Below, piece by piece: positions 1 to 54,665 of a stretch of 64,000 nucleotides of DNA (position 1 is its first letter; each line of letters starts with the position of its first letter). The DNA lies in contig JAFUQX010000058.1 in the NCBI GenBank assembly GCA_017472145.1, positions 62,001 through 126,000 on the forward strand, in the 5' to 3' direction. A model generated the notes under the pieces. It made no database searches. It saw nothing but the letters and a program-made list of their open reading frames with translations, and was not told where the DNA came from. This stretch comes from Ruminococcus sp. (lineage in GTDB: Bacteria > Bacillota > Clostridia > Oscillospirales > Ruminococcaceae). The translations under genes and the position numbers were made by a program.

Positions 1-1309
1 TCGTTCCGATATAGCGTCTCTTTGCAGAGGTCAGCTGCCGCAGGGAGAGACTTGCGGAAAGGCCCTTCTTTGTAATCGGTGCATTCAGGCGGCTGTCAAA
101 ATAGATCTCCTCCCTCCCGCCGGAAATTGCCCGTACCGGAGAGATGGAAGCTACCTTTCGTGTTTTGAATACAATCAGAAGGGCAGAGAGTACAAGAAGC
201 AGGGCGGCACACAACATACTCTTTCCAGTGGAAAGTCCTTCTGTAGGAAGAACGCCTGTAATCGTCTGACAAATAGCGCCTATGAAGCCTTCGATGGGAA
301 AGGCCAGAAGGCTGCCCAGCACTACACCTGTCACCTGCGCAAGAAGATATTGCAACAGGATAACCGCTCTGATTTTTCCCTTGGAGAAGCCCTGCGATTT
401 CAGAACACCCAGGGTCACATAATCAATTTCAATTTCTGTACCGATGCTGTGACTCATGACAATAAGCACGATGAGGAAGAGAAATACCGCAAAGGCCAGT
501 ACAATATCCAGCACAATGTCCGGCATAAGGGTGCTGTAGCGAACAGACTGATCTATATTCAGCGCACCTGTAGCCACATCGATAAGCCCTGTTTCCAGAT
601 TGAGCTGGCGCTGGAACTTCGCCGCAGAAAGCCCTGCGTCTTCCGCCTGGTGGACACGAACTACAGTGAATATACTGTGCATATCCTCTGTTTCCAGAGG
701 CTGACACAGCTCATACAGCTCCTCATAATCCTCATGACCTATGAAAACCAGCTTCCAACCAATGACCATCGAGCCCTGAAGCGGCTCCTCCACAAAGCCC
801 TTGACTGTAAATTCCGCACGGTTATCATTGATCAGATGCACTGTAATGGTATCCCCTACGCTGCACGTCAGCTTGGATTTCAGCCCCAGAGGAAGATAGA
901 TCTCCCCCTTCTGAATCTCTGGCAAGTTGCCCATATATCCATTCTGATTCTCATTATACAGTCTGATTTCCTCTGTATGCGTTGTCAGGAAGTAGGAATT
1001 CGGGTCATTGATCTCCCCTACATCTGCGCCGTTTGTGGCGATTGCATCAAAATAATCCACACGCTCTACAAGCGCACTTTTTTCCACAGCCGTACGTATT
1101 TCATCGGTCAGGCGTGTTGTTCTGACATAGGCATTCACGTCTCCGATATCTGAATAGGAATGAGAGGCTTCAATGGCGGTTCGGTAGTTATCCTGCGCAC
1201 TGAGGATAGAGGTCATCACTGTAATAACAATGGCCGTGAGCAGCATCACACTGATGAATGTCCCCTTTTTCTTCCGGATATTCGCTTTCAGTAAGGTTAA
1301 AATCTCCAT
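1..1309 (-). CDS. ABC transporter permease, FtsX/MacB-like (3' part beyond window)
   Basis: This is the membrane subunit of an ABC exporter. The start (MEILTLLKANIRKK) lies 10 bp after the stop of the ATPase gene, whose last codons supply the AGGTGA ribosome binding site. A first membrane helix at about residues 16-36 is followed by a large extracytoplasmic domain of some 230 residues. Further helices follow (for example around LDIVLAFAVFLFLIVLIVMS and LLLVLSALLIVF). This is the MacB/FtsX permease layout, and only about the N-terminal half is present. Together with the upstream ATPase and two-component genes it resembles stress- or peptide-responsive exporters of Firmicutes. The substrate cannot be deduced. 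Confidence 0.85.
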   Translation of the reverse strand, partial: MEILTLLKANIRKKKGTFISVMLLTAIVITVMTSILSAQDNYRTAIEASHSYSDIGDVNAYVRTTRLTDEIRTAVEKSALVERVDYFDAIATNGADVGEINDPNSYFLTTHTEEIRLYNENQNGYMGNLPEIQKGEIYLPLGLKSKLTCSVGDTITVHLINDNRAEFTVKGFVEEPLQGSMVIGWKLVFIGHEDYEELYELCQPLETEDMHSIFTVVRVHQAEDAGLSAAKFQRQLNLETGLIDVATGALNIDQSVRYSTLMPDIVLDIVLAFAVFLFLIVLIVMSHSIGTEIEIDYVTLGVLKSQGFSKGKIRAVILLQYLLAQVTGVVLGSLLAFPIEGFIGAICQTITGVLPTEGLSTGKSMLCAALLLVLSALLIVFKTRKVASISPVRAISGGREEIYFDSRLNAPITKKGLSASLSLRQLTSAKRRYIGT

Positions 1310-51462: not shown

Positions 51463-51501
51463 AGAAACAACAAAACCCCCGGACTCTGTGTTCCGAGGGT
51501 T
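51463..51501 (-). terminator. Intrinsic terminator of the 1-kb repeat-bearing transcription unit
   Basis: Stem AACCCTCGGA/TCCGGGGGTT (one G-U pair, 8-nt loop), followed on the minus strand by TTGTTGTTT. It closes the unit begun by the promoter at 52505-52533. Confidence 0.85.
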
Positions 51502-51971
51502 GCTTTTATTCAATTTTGCCAGTTTTTATTTAGGAGAACTTTCATTCTCCTGCTTAACTTTCGATTGGACTCACTCCCTGTACTTACGGATTCAATAATC
51601 GAGTTAAGATGTACATTTTCATCACAATCACGCTCTTTCCTCATTAGATCGGCTGATGTGGTTCAATGTATGTTATGCCATCGGACTCACCTTTTCAAGT
51701 TTTTTGCTTTGTACCTTATTATGTAGAGTCATACATGGGAATCACCATTTCCTGTGTCATTATTTTACAGGCTTGGTTATTATGCCATGGGAATCACCGT
51801 TTTCATTTCAAGATGTGTACGTTAAAATAAATTTTATATTTTGTTTCAATATTCAATTGTCGTTCTTGTCAGTTACAAACCCTGAATCGGATGCAACCGG
51901 TACGAACTTTATTACTTCTTTGGAGGCCCTCACCGATATTCACCGGTTCTCGCTCATCCTTTTTGTTTACG

Positions 51972-52028
51972 TTACCGAGTGCTTTTCCGATCCATAAGGC
52001 TCATGTACTGTGGTGTTTCATTTGCCAT
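51972..52028 (-). CDS. 18-codon mini-ORF, copy 2
   Basis: It encodes MANETPQYMSLMDRKSTR. GGAAGGGTGA lies just before the ATG. Start and stop align exactly with the copy at 52311-52367, and 9 of 18 residues are identical. Whether it is translated is unknown. No family is recognised. Confidence 0.3.
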   Translation of the reverse strand: MANETPQYMSLMDRKSTR

Positions 52029-52310
52029 TGGATCTCACCCTTCCTTGGTTTGATTTTTTAGTACGGTTACTCATCAGAATCGTACATAGGAATCACCCTT
52101 CATTTTCCGTTATACTTCAGCATCTATGTAAAGGCTTTTTGCCGAAGATTCGAAATCGTCATCATTTCGAATTACGTTCACCTATGCTGTCTGTGATATA
52201 ACGTTTTCCTTTACAGTTACACCCGCTGAATCAGATAAAATCCGGTACGAATATCATCACTCCTACGGGGTCATGGCTGCTTTATCAGCTCATACGCTCC
52301 GCTCTTTTCG

Positions 52311-52367
52311 TCACCGGCCGTCTTTCCGATCCAGACAGCATATGTACTGTGTCTCTTCACTTGCCAT
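52311..52367 (-). CDS. 18-codon mini-ORF, copy 1
   Basis: It encodes MASEETQYICCLDRKDGR. A perfect AGGAGG is 10 nt before the ATG. It is the first initiation site downstream of the unit's promoter that has a good Shine-Dalgarno. An overlapping 60-codon frame (52271-52453) is the alternative reading of the same segment. Confidence 0.35.
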   Translation of the reverse strand: MASEETQYICCLDRKDGR

Positions 52368-52504
52368 CGGACCTCAACCTCCTGACTGATTGTTCTTGCT
52401 TCCCAAAAGACCTTCTGTCTTAACCCTTGTGAAGCAAATCGATGAAAGATCATCCTGTAACTTCTTTTATTCTTCCGTTACTGTCTTTCTCTTTCCTTGT
52501 CTAT

Positions 52505-52533
52505 ATGATACCACACGCATCCCCATTTGTCAA
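52505..52533 (-). promoter_or_regulatory. Promoter of the repeat-bearing transcription unit
   Basis: Minus strand: TTGACA (52528-52533), a 17-bp spacer and TATCAT (52505-52510). One mismatch to consensus. It lies 115 bp after the terminator of the pseudokinase gene, so this is an independent unit. Confidence 0.85.
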
Positions 52534-52703: not shown

Positions 52704-54665
52704 TCAATATACAAATCCGCCTGCCTGAAGCGCAGGATCAACCAGCGGTGCTTCTGTTACCACCGGAGCCTCAGTCGGAGCCTGGGTCGGTGCTTCAGTC
52801 GGGGCCTGAGTCGGTGCTTCCGTGGGGGCCTCAGTCGGGGCTACAGTAGTCGTTGCCTCGGTCGTTACCGGCGCAACTGCATAATATACAACAATTTCTT
52901 CAGCCTTTTCCAGATCGTACTGATTCTGAATGTCCATGCTCAGCTTGGATACAGTATTGGCCGCACAATCTGCCGTTGTTTCCGCTTCAAGACGATATTT
53001 TACACCCAGCTCATCCAACTGCTTTGTATAATCGCCCACATATACATTGCTATAATTCGGCAGAAGAATCAAAGACGGACCCTTACTCACCTGGATCTTT
53101 ACCGGCTTAGAGGTATCAAAATACGCACCCTCTGCAATTTCCTGCCATACAATTGTACCAGCTGGTTCTGTATCATCAAATACTTCCTCTACGCTGAACT
53201 TCATCCAGGAGCTGTAGCGCTCTGCCTGTGTATCAAAGTTCTTGCCGACCAGATTAGGCATGATGCCATCTCCCTCAGGCGTAGTTGTCTCTGTTGACTT
53301 TTCCACATCTTCTGCGGAAACCGCCGTTGTTACTGTACTTGTAACAACCTGACTGCTCTCCGAACCCGGCGCATCGCCCCTGGAGAACATAAAATAAAGG
53401 CCAATCAGAAGGATCACCAGAAGAAGCATACCAATAATCAGCGGAACCTTTACTCTGTCAATAGCACTGGGCTGGGGTTCCTGATAAGAATTTCGCTGAT
53501 AACTCTCATTTCCGTAATCATCATACGAATAATCATCCGTATATTCCTGCTGCCCATAATGATTATAGGCATTCGGATCATCATAATACTCATTACCATA
53601 GTTCTGCTGCTGATAGCCAGCTGCTGTTCCAGCCTGATGATCTGCGCCTCTGTTCTGTACATTGCTCCTGTTCTGCGGCATTCTTCCAGCCGCGCCATAT
53701 TCATTCCTCTGCTCGCTGAACAGCTGCGTTACCAGCTCTGTGATCGTCTGGATGCGGTCTGCGCTGACCAGGTTCAGGCCCTTCATGATCACATCAGATA
53801 TATGACGTGAAATATTGGGATTCAGCAAACACGGCGCAATCAGGTTGTCATCCTCCATACGACTGATGGCACTGGTCGGCATACTGCCTGTCAGCACCCG
53901 ATACAGAACTGCACAGACAGCATAAACATCTGTCCATGTGCCCTGACGATTGCTGGCCGAATACTGCTCCGGTGCAGCATAACCGCTGAAAATCTCACAA
54001 TCCAGCTCCGTATCCGCTGTACGTACCGCTGAAATGGAAAAATCTGTCAGCTTCAGCTCGCACTTCTGGGTAACATAAATCGTTTCCGGACTGATCGCAC
54101 GGTGAATCACACCGCTGTTGTGCAGAATGCTCAGGGTGGTCAGAAACGGCGGAAGCATACCAGAAAGCTGTCCCCAGCTCAGTTCACCTGCATTCTCCTT
54201 AAGGAAATCAACAAACCGCATTCCCTCAATATACTCGAAAACGATATAGGTTGAATTATTTTCTGCAAACATATCAACCACGGTATTGATCTGCACCTGC
54301 TCCCGCATCTGAGCCAGAGATTTGTTCAGATCTGTAAATTCCTCCATCAGAACCTTATACTGCGGCAGCTTGGATGGGTTCACCCGAATCAGCGGCGATC
54401 CATCTACACGGGAGCAAAGATTCAGCGGCATATACTCCCGGAGCAGTACACGGCAGCCAATGGAGCGGTCCAATGCGATATATGTAATTCCTTCACCATT
54501 CATGGAAAGGGCTGTTCCGACAATATACCGCTGATTCAGCTCTGTCCCAGGCTGGATAAAGACTGCATTCACAGCCACATTCTCGTTATACCCGCAGCGC
54601 TGACAAGTACCATTGTGATAATCCGTATTCAGCATGCATCCGAAGCATAATTTTCTTTCAGCCAA
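52704..54665 (-). CDS. Membrane PASTA-domain pseudokinase with N-terminal zinc ribbon
   Basis: 653 aa. In order: a zinc ribbon (CFGC at residues 7-10 and CQRC at 21-24), a Ser/Thr-kinase-like domain (about 47-320), a Gln/Asn/Tyr-rich linker, one transmembrane helix (about 402-424), two PASTA-like domains (about 467-600) and a Thr-Glu-Ala-Pro repeat tail. The kinase fold keeps APEQY and WTDVYAVCAVLYRVLTG, but key residues are changed: the VAIK Lys is Arg76 (VLLREYMP), the HRD Asp is Ala190 (HRAISPETI), the following Asn is Thr195 and DFG is DFS (208-210). It is therefore probably inactive and a peptidoglycan- or muropeptide-sensing scaffold. The start is a TTG with GGAGGG 6 nt upstream. Own promoter and terminator. 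Confidence 0.9.
   Translation of the reverse strand: MAERKLCFGCMLNTDYHNGTCQRCGYNENVAVNAVFIQPGTELNQRYIVGTALSMNGEGITYIALDRSIGCRVLLREYMPLNLCSRVDGSPLIRVNPSKLPQYKVLMEEFTDLNKSLAQMREQVQINTVVDMFAENNSTYIVFEYIEGMRFVDFLKENAGELSWGQLSGMLPPFLTTLSILHNSGVIHRAISPETIYVTQKCELKLTDFSISAVRTADTELDCEIFSGYAAPEQYSASNRQGTWTDVYAVCAVLYRVLTGSMPTSAISRMEDDNLIAPCLLNPNISRHISDVIMKGLNLVSADRIQTITELVTQLFSEQRNEYGAAGRMPQNRSNVQNRGADHQAGTAAGYQQQNYGNEYYDDPNAYNHYGQQEYTDDYSYDDYGNESYQRNSYQEPQPSAIDRVKVPLIIGMLLLVILLIGLYFMFSRGDAPGSESSQVVTSTVTTAVSAEDVEKSTETTTPEGDGIMPNLVGKNFDTQAERYSSWMKFSVEEVFDDTEPAGTIVWQEIAEGAYFDTSKPVKIQVSKGPSLILLPNYSNVYVGDYTKQLDELGVKYRLEAETTADCAANTVSKLSMDIQNQYDLEKAEEIVVYYAVAPVTTEATTTVAPTEAPTEAPTQAPTEAPTQAPTEAPVVTEAPLVDPALQAGGFVY

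Follow-up and report, generated by a model that had tools for sequence, protein, structure and literature searches.

The large structured RNAs OLE, ROOL and GOLLD are described as poorly understood in function, in passages that mention no arrays of start sites or mini-ORFs in these or in the raiA-motif RNAs (PMC12286853). The two-codon minigenes of axe-txe and of EHEC LEE1 consist of a Shine-Dalgarno sequence, an AUG, one codon and a stop. The axe-txe minigene exerts its effect on translation in cis, the LEE1 minigene is described as influencing the downstream ler gene, a strong site ahead of a mini-ORF can stabilise the RNA, and two-codon minigenes can be toxic via peptidyl-tRNA release, the axe-txe minigene itself being non-toxic (PMC8708949). 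The uORF and sORF motifs obtained from comparative genomics have conserved start and stop codons and often a Shine-Dalgarno sequence (PMC11109978, PMC6429828).

The locus presented here resembles each of these systems in part. It is a structured RNA similar in size to OLE, ROOL, GOLLD and the raiA-motif RNAs, which to our knowledge lack arrays of start sites and mini-ORFs, and it differs from them in having no Rfam match. With the axe-txe and LEE1 minigenes it shares the order of Shine-Dalgarno, AUG, one codon and stop, whereas it carries many minigenes in a row on a free-standing RNA that has a promoter and a terminator to itself. Phage lambda bar is another two-codon minigene. Start and stop codons are conserved as in the uORF motifs, but a uORF goes with one consistent gene downstream, while this unit has varying neighbours and many ORFs per RNA. 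The published minigenes support elements of the mechanism proposed below. Minigenes, Shine-Dalgarno motifs and large structured RNAs are all known as parts; we found no description of such an RNA, nor of these parts joined as a separate gene, in the open-licence literature searched.

We are highly confident that the unit is a conserved structured mini-ORF RNA. Its sequence further suggests, at a little under even chances in our judgement, a standalone, structured and translated RNA that would engage ribosomes, act in trans and encode no normal protein. More tentatively, it may represent a new class of dedicated ribosome-trapping RNA, a 30S sponge or gauge in an RNA-based control of free ribosomes, a reading that takes in the arrays of extended Shine-Dalgarno motifs, the two-codon genes, the AUG-stop pairs and the start-less sites after stops. 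If true, gut bacteria would possess a natural RNA on which ribosomes are engaged repeatedly although no protein results, and the physiological use of minigenes and the control of free ribosomes would become directly testable. Such genes lie in a blind spot, as two-codon ORFs are too short for gene finders and, we infer, RNA finders tend to skip regions containing start sites.

Organisation of the unit

The window is the whole 64,000-nucleotide (64-kb) stretch of DNA that was analysed, and the unit occupies positions 52533 to 51465 of its minus strand, with transcription predicted to run from high to low coordinates (Table 1). The initial annotation had described a clean promoter and terminator around a region without a normal gene, and it was right on these points. 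The promoter has the top score among the 10 promoter-like sites in 3 kb, where shuffled sequences give a mean of 4.6 sites of any score, and about 1,000 bases separate it from the terminator stem. The longest listed coding-strand frame within the body has 60 amino acids (52453-52271), and the antisense (plus) strand contains frames of 113 and 105 amino acids that the annotation did not mention. None of these three longest frames of the unit has a Pfam match at E≤1, and a protein remnant was therefore rejected.

Table 1. Features of the unit, in order of the predicted transcript (positions in the window).
Feature	Position	Strand	Remark
Promoter TTGACA-17-TATCAT, TG before the -10 box (extended)	52505..52533	-	11/12 consensus matches
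Putative transcript start, conserved CAAGGAAAGAG	52489..52499	-	start site predicted from sequence
5' hairpin GCUUC..GAAGC	52398..52435	-	alignable equivalent in most genus copies (uncounted)
First copy of the duplicated module: ORF1 and downstream part	52214..52383	-	
ORF1, MASEETQYICCLDRKDGR-stop, preceded by AGGAGGUUGAGGUCCG	52311..52367	-	18 codons; acidic-start ORF1 in other members
Central folded domain, hairpin with GAUGACG loop	52117..52191	-	covariance model R1
Motif AAGGGUGAUUCCU and mini-ORF MYDSDE-stop	52067..52100	-	L004 MYNSEKR-stop, L005 MCDFTVI-stop, L006 MYDSIS-stop
Second module copy	51870..52043	-	
Motif and second ORF1-like frame MANETPQYMSLMDRKSTR-stop	51972..52043	-	
Motif and two-codon minigene AUG-GCA-UAA (MA-stop)	51780..51802	-	
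Motif and mini-ORF MYDST-stop	51719..51751	-	
Motif and two-codon minigene AUG-GCA-UAA (MA-stop)	51673..51696	-	second instance
Basic mini-ORF MKMYILTRLLNP-stop	51584..51639	-	relatives MKKYLFVRFLNP-stop, MKINVVFRLFNP-stop
Start-less motif GGGAGUGAGUCC, then AUC instead of AUG	51558..51578	-	
Hairpin AGGAGAA-UGAAAG-UUCUCCU	51532..51551	-	start-less motif and hairpin together form model R2
AAAAUUGAAUA ahead of the terminator	51507..51517	-	
Intrinsic terminator	51465..51501	-	10-pair stem 51501-51474, then T-rich tail

A search of the 64-kb window against 4227 Rfam families gave 0 matches, which fits an undescribed RNA; the best match within the unit at a relaxed threshold reached E=0.05 and 25.5 bits against a cut-off of 70, and a known RNA family was rejected in view of the lack of a match at the gathering score. 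The window likewise contains no detectable tRNA or tmRNA, and an identity of the unit with tmRNA is ruled out as the above-cut-off tmRNA of the same genome sits elsewhere (C60:3995-4368). The Rfam model for 6S RNA found no match in this genome; the result means little, since the same search was positive in only 5 of 14 control genomes. As for a virus-borne origin, one exact minigene pattern, the sole pattern tried, matched 0 stretches in viral contigs.

The body had also been read as tandem copies of a ~345-bp unit. One module of about 170 nt is indeed duplicated at a spacing of about 340 nt (a 76-nt pair with 74% identity at spacing 339 and a 23-nt pair with 78% at spacing 345), but the body does not consist wholly of such copies. 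Much of the remaining repetition is the recurring short motif GGUGA.UCC.AUG (repeat families D2 and D3). The first reading had thus seen the repeats but missed both their apparent nature, an extended Shine-Dalgarno sequence with AUG, and the two-codon ORFs. A further GUG frame after a motif match in the unit (VNIGEGLQ..) is probably due to chance. For the AAAAUUGAAUA element ahead of the terminator, the form [AC]AAUUGAA[UA]A is present anywhere in 28 of the 53 units described below, compared with 0-4 of 53 in ten mononucleotide shuffles.

Start-site motifs and very short reading frames

The repeated element reads GG..[UC]G[AG]..[UA]CC, mostly with AUG or GUG one base later, and by its sequence it is an extended Shine-Dalgarno element with predicted complementarity to the 3' end of 16S rRNA. 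The 12 units of the genus are mutually related and hence not independent, but they were found by whole-unit blastn and their counts are therefore free of motif-based selection: they hold 58 motif sites (shuffle mean 8.0, maximum 17), 46 sites with a start codon (1.5, maximum 7) and 18 two-codon ORFs (0.14, maximum 2). In 23 units obtained from a 5' pattern there are 108 sites (16.9 in shuffles), 70 with a start (2.2) and 28 two-codon ORFs (0.13). In the full set of 53 units the motif had a part in deciding membership outside the genus, and every locus from an ORF1 pattern contains one motif with start by construction. This set yields 248 sites, where shuffles give 37.8 and the reverse strand 33; for sites with a start the corresponding figures are 163, 5.4 and 3.

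These 53 units comprise the 12 genus copies, 23 of 42 stretches matching the 5' pattern, 16 units from 44 ORF1-pattern loci, and L038 and L044. The 42 stretches came from a 5'-end scan of named genomes; 27 were judged members and 11 non-members, three of the members (L075, L078 and L089) were omitted as repeating genus copies, L088 as truncated, and L071, L073, L081 and L091 as too short or outside the examination. From the 44 ORF1-pattern loci 24 were chosen by eye and 8 of them removed by a filter at ≥88% identity. The ends of L024, L092 and L100 were set by hand before the counts.

At 156 of the 163 started sites the AUG or GUG stands exactly one base past the motif, and 63 of the 163 motif-led ORFs, spread over several genera, have exactly two codons. 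The second codon of these 63 is of 16 kinds, their stops are UAA (46), UGA (10) and UAG (7), and GUG is the start in two. Four further motif-led ORFs consist of a start followed immediately by a stop; a start-stop element, with AUG and stop codon adjacent behind a strong motif, is seen in L079, L103, L149 and L151. A stop triplet lies at the in-frame offset +6 in 64 of 164 cases; the other twelve offsets in the range +3 to +15 have 4-19. We regard this peak as stronger evidence than ORF length, because short ORFs are also frequent in frame +1: ORFs of at most two codons follow the motif in 67 of 163 cases (133 of 961 at other AUGs in the same units), in 46 of 161 cases in frame +1 and in 23 of 162 in frame +2. 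The arrangement that marks a two-codon minigene, a strong Shine-Dalgarno sequence, start, one sense codon and stop, is therefore present, twice in the unit of the window itself. Other motif sites lead ORFs of 10-26 codons or have no start codon.

Pairing energies were calculated with what we take to be the 3'-tail sequence of 16S rRNA. The medians were -13.1 kcal/mol for ORFs of up to three codons, -16.4 for longer ones and -14.1 for start-less sites, compared with -6.1 over all ATGs of the units and -10.3 for the best start of the long ORFs in the window, a comparison in which the motif definition favours strong sites.

The motif also occurs outside the unit. The string GTGANTCCNATG is found 14 times in the genome of origin, 4 of them inside the unit, and its backward-read control nowhere in that genome. 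Among 30 motif loci read across the genus, three precede ORFs that have 99-281 codons and a purine-rich lead; several sit within coding sequence. Its occurrence before long ORFs suggests that the motif is ordinary initiation equipment, present here in unusual number. Elsewhere, other genes have a lone minigene with this motif a short way upstream: AUG-AAG-UGA ahead of an apparent secreted-protein gene (L122, G000:C5:15671), MQCVNEM-stop (L123, G003:C72:3442) and AUG-UAA (L133, G014:C11:25880); these are possible leader minigenes. One copy of the start motif, GTGAGTCCAATG, lies at G000:C60:3464-3475, on the strand of the tmRNA gene and about 0.5 kb downstream of it. Protein genes at L065, L087, L090, L099 and L101 have the same promoter and CAAGGAAAGAG start, with a similar GGTAACTATACCACAAAAAAGTGC stretch ahead that is perhaps an operator.

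Conservation and distribution

The blastn comparison suggested with the initial annotation gave matches in 13 of 16 genus genomes, some of them only short pieces. The genome of origin contains one blastn copy and two chance-level matches; the three genomes lacking the unit are 82, 56 and 83% complete. Model R1, for which these 13 genomes supplied the sequences, detects a single copy per genome in all 13 and none in the other three. Together with the strong covariation of the central domain described below, these matches confirm that the unit exceeds chance. Measured between -10 box and terminator, the 12 complete genus copies are 762 to about 1,090 nt long, with some ends set automatically; the copy in G008 is split over two contigs and was omitted from the counts, its 3' part being included in alignments A1-A3. 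TTGAC[AT] lies upstream in 12 of the 12 copies, 11 of which pass the regex used, and TTGAC[AT]-16..19-TA is present in 23 of the 23 units that the 5' pattern yielded. In the most diverged genus copy (L036, G006:C157), a row of minigenes, six with two codons and two with three, includes one with a GUG start; the gene downstream of this copy is presumably that of ribosomal protein L34.

Arrays of this kind extend to other genera. The 42 stretches of the 5'-end scan are all MAGs, mostly labelled Ruminococcus, Oscillospiraceae or Clostridia, and one member (L085) is labelled Bacteroides. In L092, L100, L077 and L094, ORFs of 10-15 codons alternate with GGAGUGAGUCC sites, several of which have AUG-GCA-UAA. 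L207 shows tandem minigenes (four AUG-GAA-UAA and one AUG-GAC-UAA), L195 the minigenes MF-stop, MY-stop and MV-stop, and L187 three copies of a short basic ORF followed by a start-less motif and the UGAAAG hairpin.

Of 396 family genomes, 53 match the ORF1 pattern (25 of 126 genera; backward-read control 8 genomes), some matches resembling chance or ordinary genes. The pattern undercounts, since it picks up only 1 of the 7 genus genomes included there. With 343 of the 396 lacking the pattern, the RNA may not be universal. Model R2, for which genera g89 and g117 supplied part of the sequences, finds 55 of the 396 genomes (26 of 126 genera) at E≤0.01 and 28 genomes (9 genera) at E≤1e-4, and misses the genus member G006. 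Model R1 gives five weak matches (E 0.011-0.0499) outside the genus in the 396 family genomes, none with a minigene array by automatic count; L056 and L057 look protein-coding, and L060 looks intergenic with a stretch like the GAUGACG hairpin. In 137 genomes of the order R2 finds the genome of origin and one weak other, and the ORF1 pattern matches 14 order genomes, 7 of them from other families, whose loci L167-L172, L179 and L180 have 1-3 motifs each by automatic count. From this shallow search outside the family, the RNA looks provisionally confined to it.

Proposed action and competing readings

In the ribosome-engaging reading, a strong promoter would give an RNA of about 1 kb, whose extended Shine-Dalgarno motifs would recruit 30S subunits. 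These would start at the AUG or GUG one base on and stop after 1-7 or 10-26 codons. Start-less motifs, often placed just past a stop, would hold (post-termination) 30S subunits without a start, and the folded domains between the sites would shape the RNA together with the UGAAAG hairpin. At 53 of 84 start-less sites, as compared with 40 of 164 started ones, an ORF of 4-30 codons led by a Shine-Dalgarno sequence ends at most 20 nt upstream, a count made without a shuffle control. The likely role would be that of a binder, buffer or sensor of free ribosomes or initiation capacity; we hypothesize that the RNA acts in trans, which would require ribosome capture on a scale large enough to matter. 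This reading draws on the motif, start and stop counts, the start-less sites after stops, the covarying folds, the varying neighbours and the weakly constrained peptides; counting against it are the motif copies elsewhere, the start-less sites expected by chance and the short ORFs in frame +1.

The folded domains might instead do the work in a large noncoding RNA, on which the mini-ORFs would keep ribosomes as a shield from nucleases or Rho. We consider this somewhat unlikely, even though two folded elements covary. In the central domain (13 sequences) 97.9% of the cells are paired and 8 of the 18 pairs are changed on both sides, with 43 such cells. Its covariation score of 0.514 is reached by 0 of 500 shuffles (slid controls 0.034-0.149), while 15 of 500 shuffles reach 8 pairs changed on both sides and 41 of 500 reach the number of pair types. 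The UGAAAG hairpin near the 3' end was scored on alignment A3, the 15 of 22 regex matches that have the stem and were thus chosen for it (12 genus sequences, L158 and L038 from other genera and L072, a MAG); here 99% of the cells pair, 6 of 7 pairs show changes at both positions and the score is 0.612, with 0 of 500 shuffles as high and slid controls at 0.098-0.186. Both structures were derived from the same alignments that were used for scoring. The unit is a structured RNA by the compensatory base changes in these two elements, the changes that the initial annotation had proposed to look for. However, the many separate sites, the exact two-codon ORFs and the start-less sites after stops exceed what protection needs, and R1 has only the five weak matches outside the genus, whereas motif arrays occur there.

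A micropeptide operon, in which ORF1 and the basic ORFs of 10-14 codons would encode functional peptides (signals, antimicrobials or leaders that act on the ribosome), is a less probable alternative. Peptide ends recur (..YHDLNI, ..RKEYEF and ..RLFNP, each followed by a stop), and ORF1, as read from the ORF list, tends to an acidic start, which could be a peptide feature or reflect A/G-rich RNA. Over 11 aligned ORF groups, picked for peptide likeness, pN/pS ranges from 0.25 to 1.08; it is below 1 in 10, with one at 0.99, and lowest for CELRLAI (0.25) and YHDLN (0.34). The peptides are thus not wholly free, a point against ribosome engagement as the whole account. Despite this choice of groups, the pooled variable columns number 70, 70 and 83 by codon position (position-3 share 83/223, p=0.12). 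Two genus clades read ORF1 past Gln in different frames while the RNA remains similar, and two-codon and AUG-stop ORFs could hardly encode working peptides. Conservation is clear for start, stop and ribosome site but, judging from the alignments, appears mostly not to extend to the peptide sequences, with ..CELRLAI and ..YHDLN among the exceptions.

It is very improbable that the motif is an untranslated protein- or RNA-binding element mimicking a start site, or that the region is a decayed repeat gene. To be sure, 85 of the 248 motif sites in the 53 units lack a directly following start codon, where chance would give about 32 (37.8 minus 5.4). The in-frame stop peak at +6, the GUG-for-AUG swaps and the three stop types speak against a mere binding element, and single-copy conservation with covarying stems against decay. 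The initial annotation had offered an undescribed structured RNA, a carrier of mini-ORFs and a decayed repeat gene as alternatives. The first two hold together, one on the compensatory changes and the absence of an Rfam match, the other on the motif, start-codon and stop-codon statistics; the third finds no support, as 13 of 16 genus genomes keep the unit in single copy, its promoter and folds preserved.

The genomic neighbours vary. Across 14 loci in 13 genus genomes, the kinase gene that lies upstream in the window has a homologue near the unit in 6 and a radical-SAM gene adjoins the unit in 6, the latter downstream and co-directional only in the genome of origin; the remaining loci have different neighbours, and some contigs end near the unit. 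The constant co-directional downstream gene expected of a uORF or attenuator is not found across the 14 loci, and the varying neighbours together with the terminal terminator make a cis role unlikely. A leader or attenuator of the downstream gene is hence barely credible, for all that the genome of origin has its co-directional radical-SAM gene and single minigenes precede other genes of the genus, when the unit closes with a terminator and that gene is so placed in one locus. The kinase-like protein encoded upstream of the unit in the window (52704-54665, minus strand) has a repetitive TEAPTQAPTEAP C-terminal tail.
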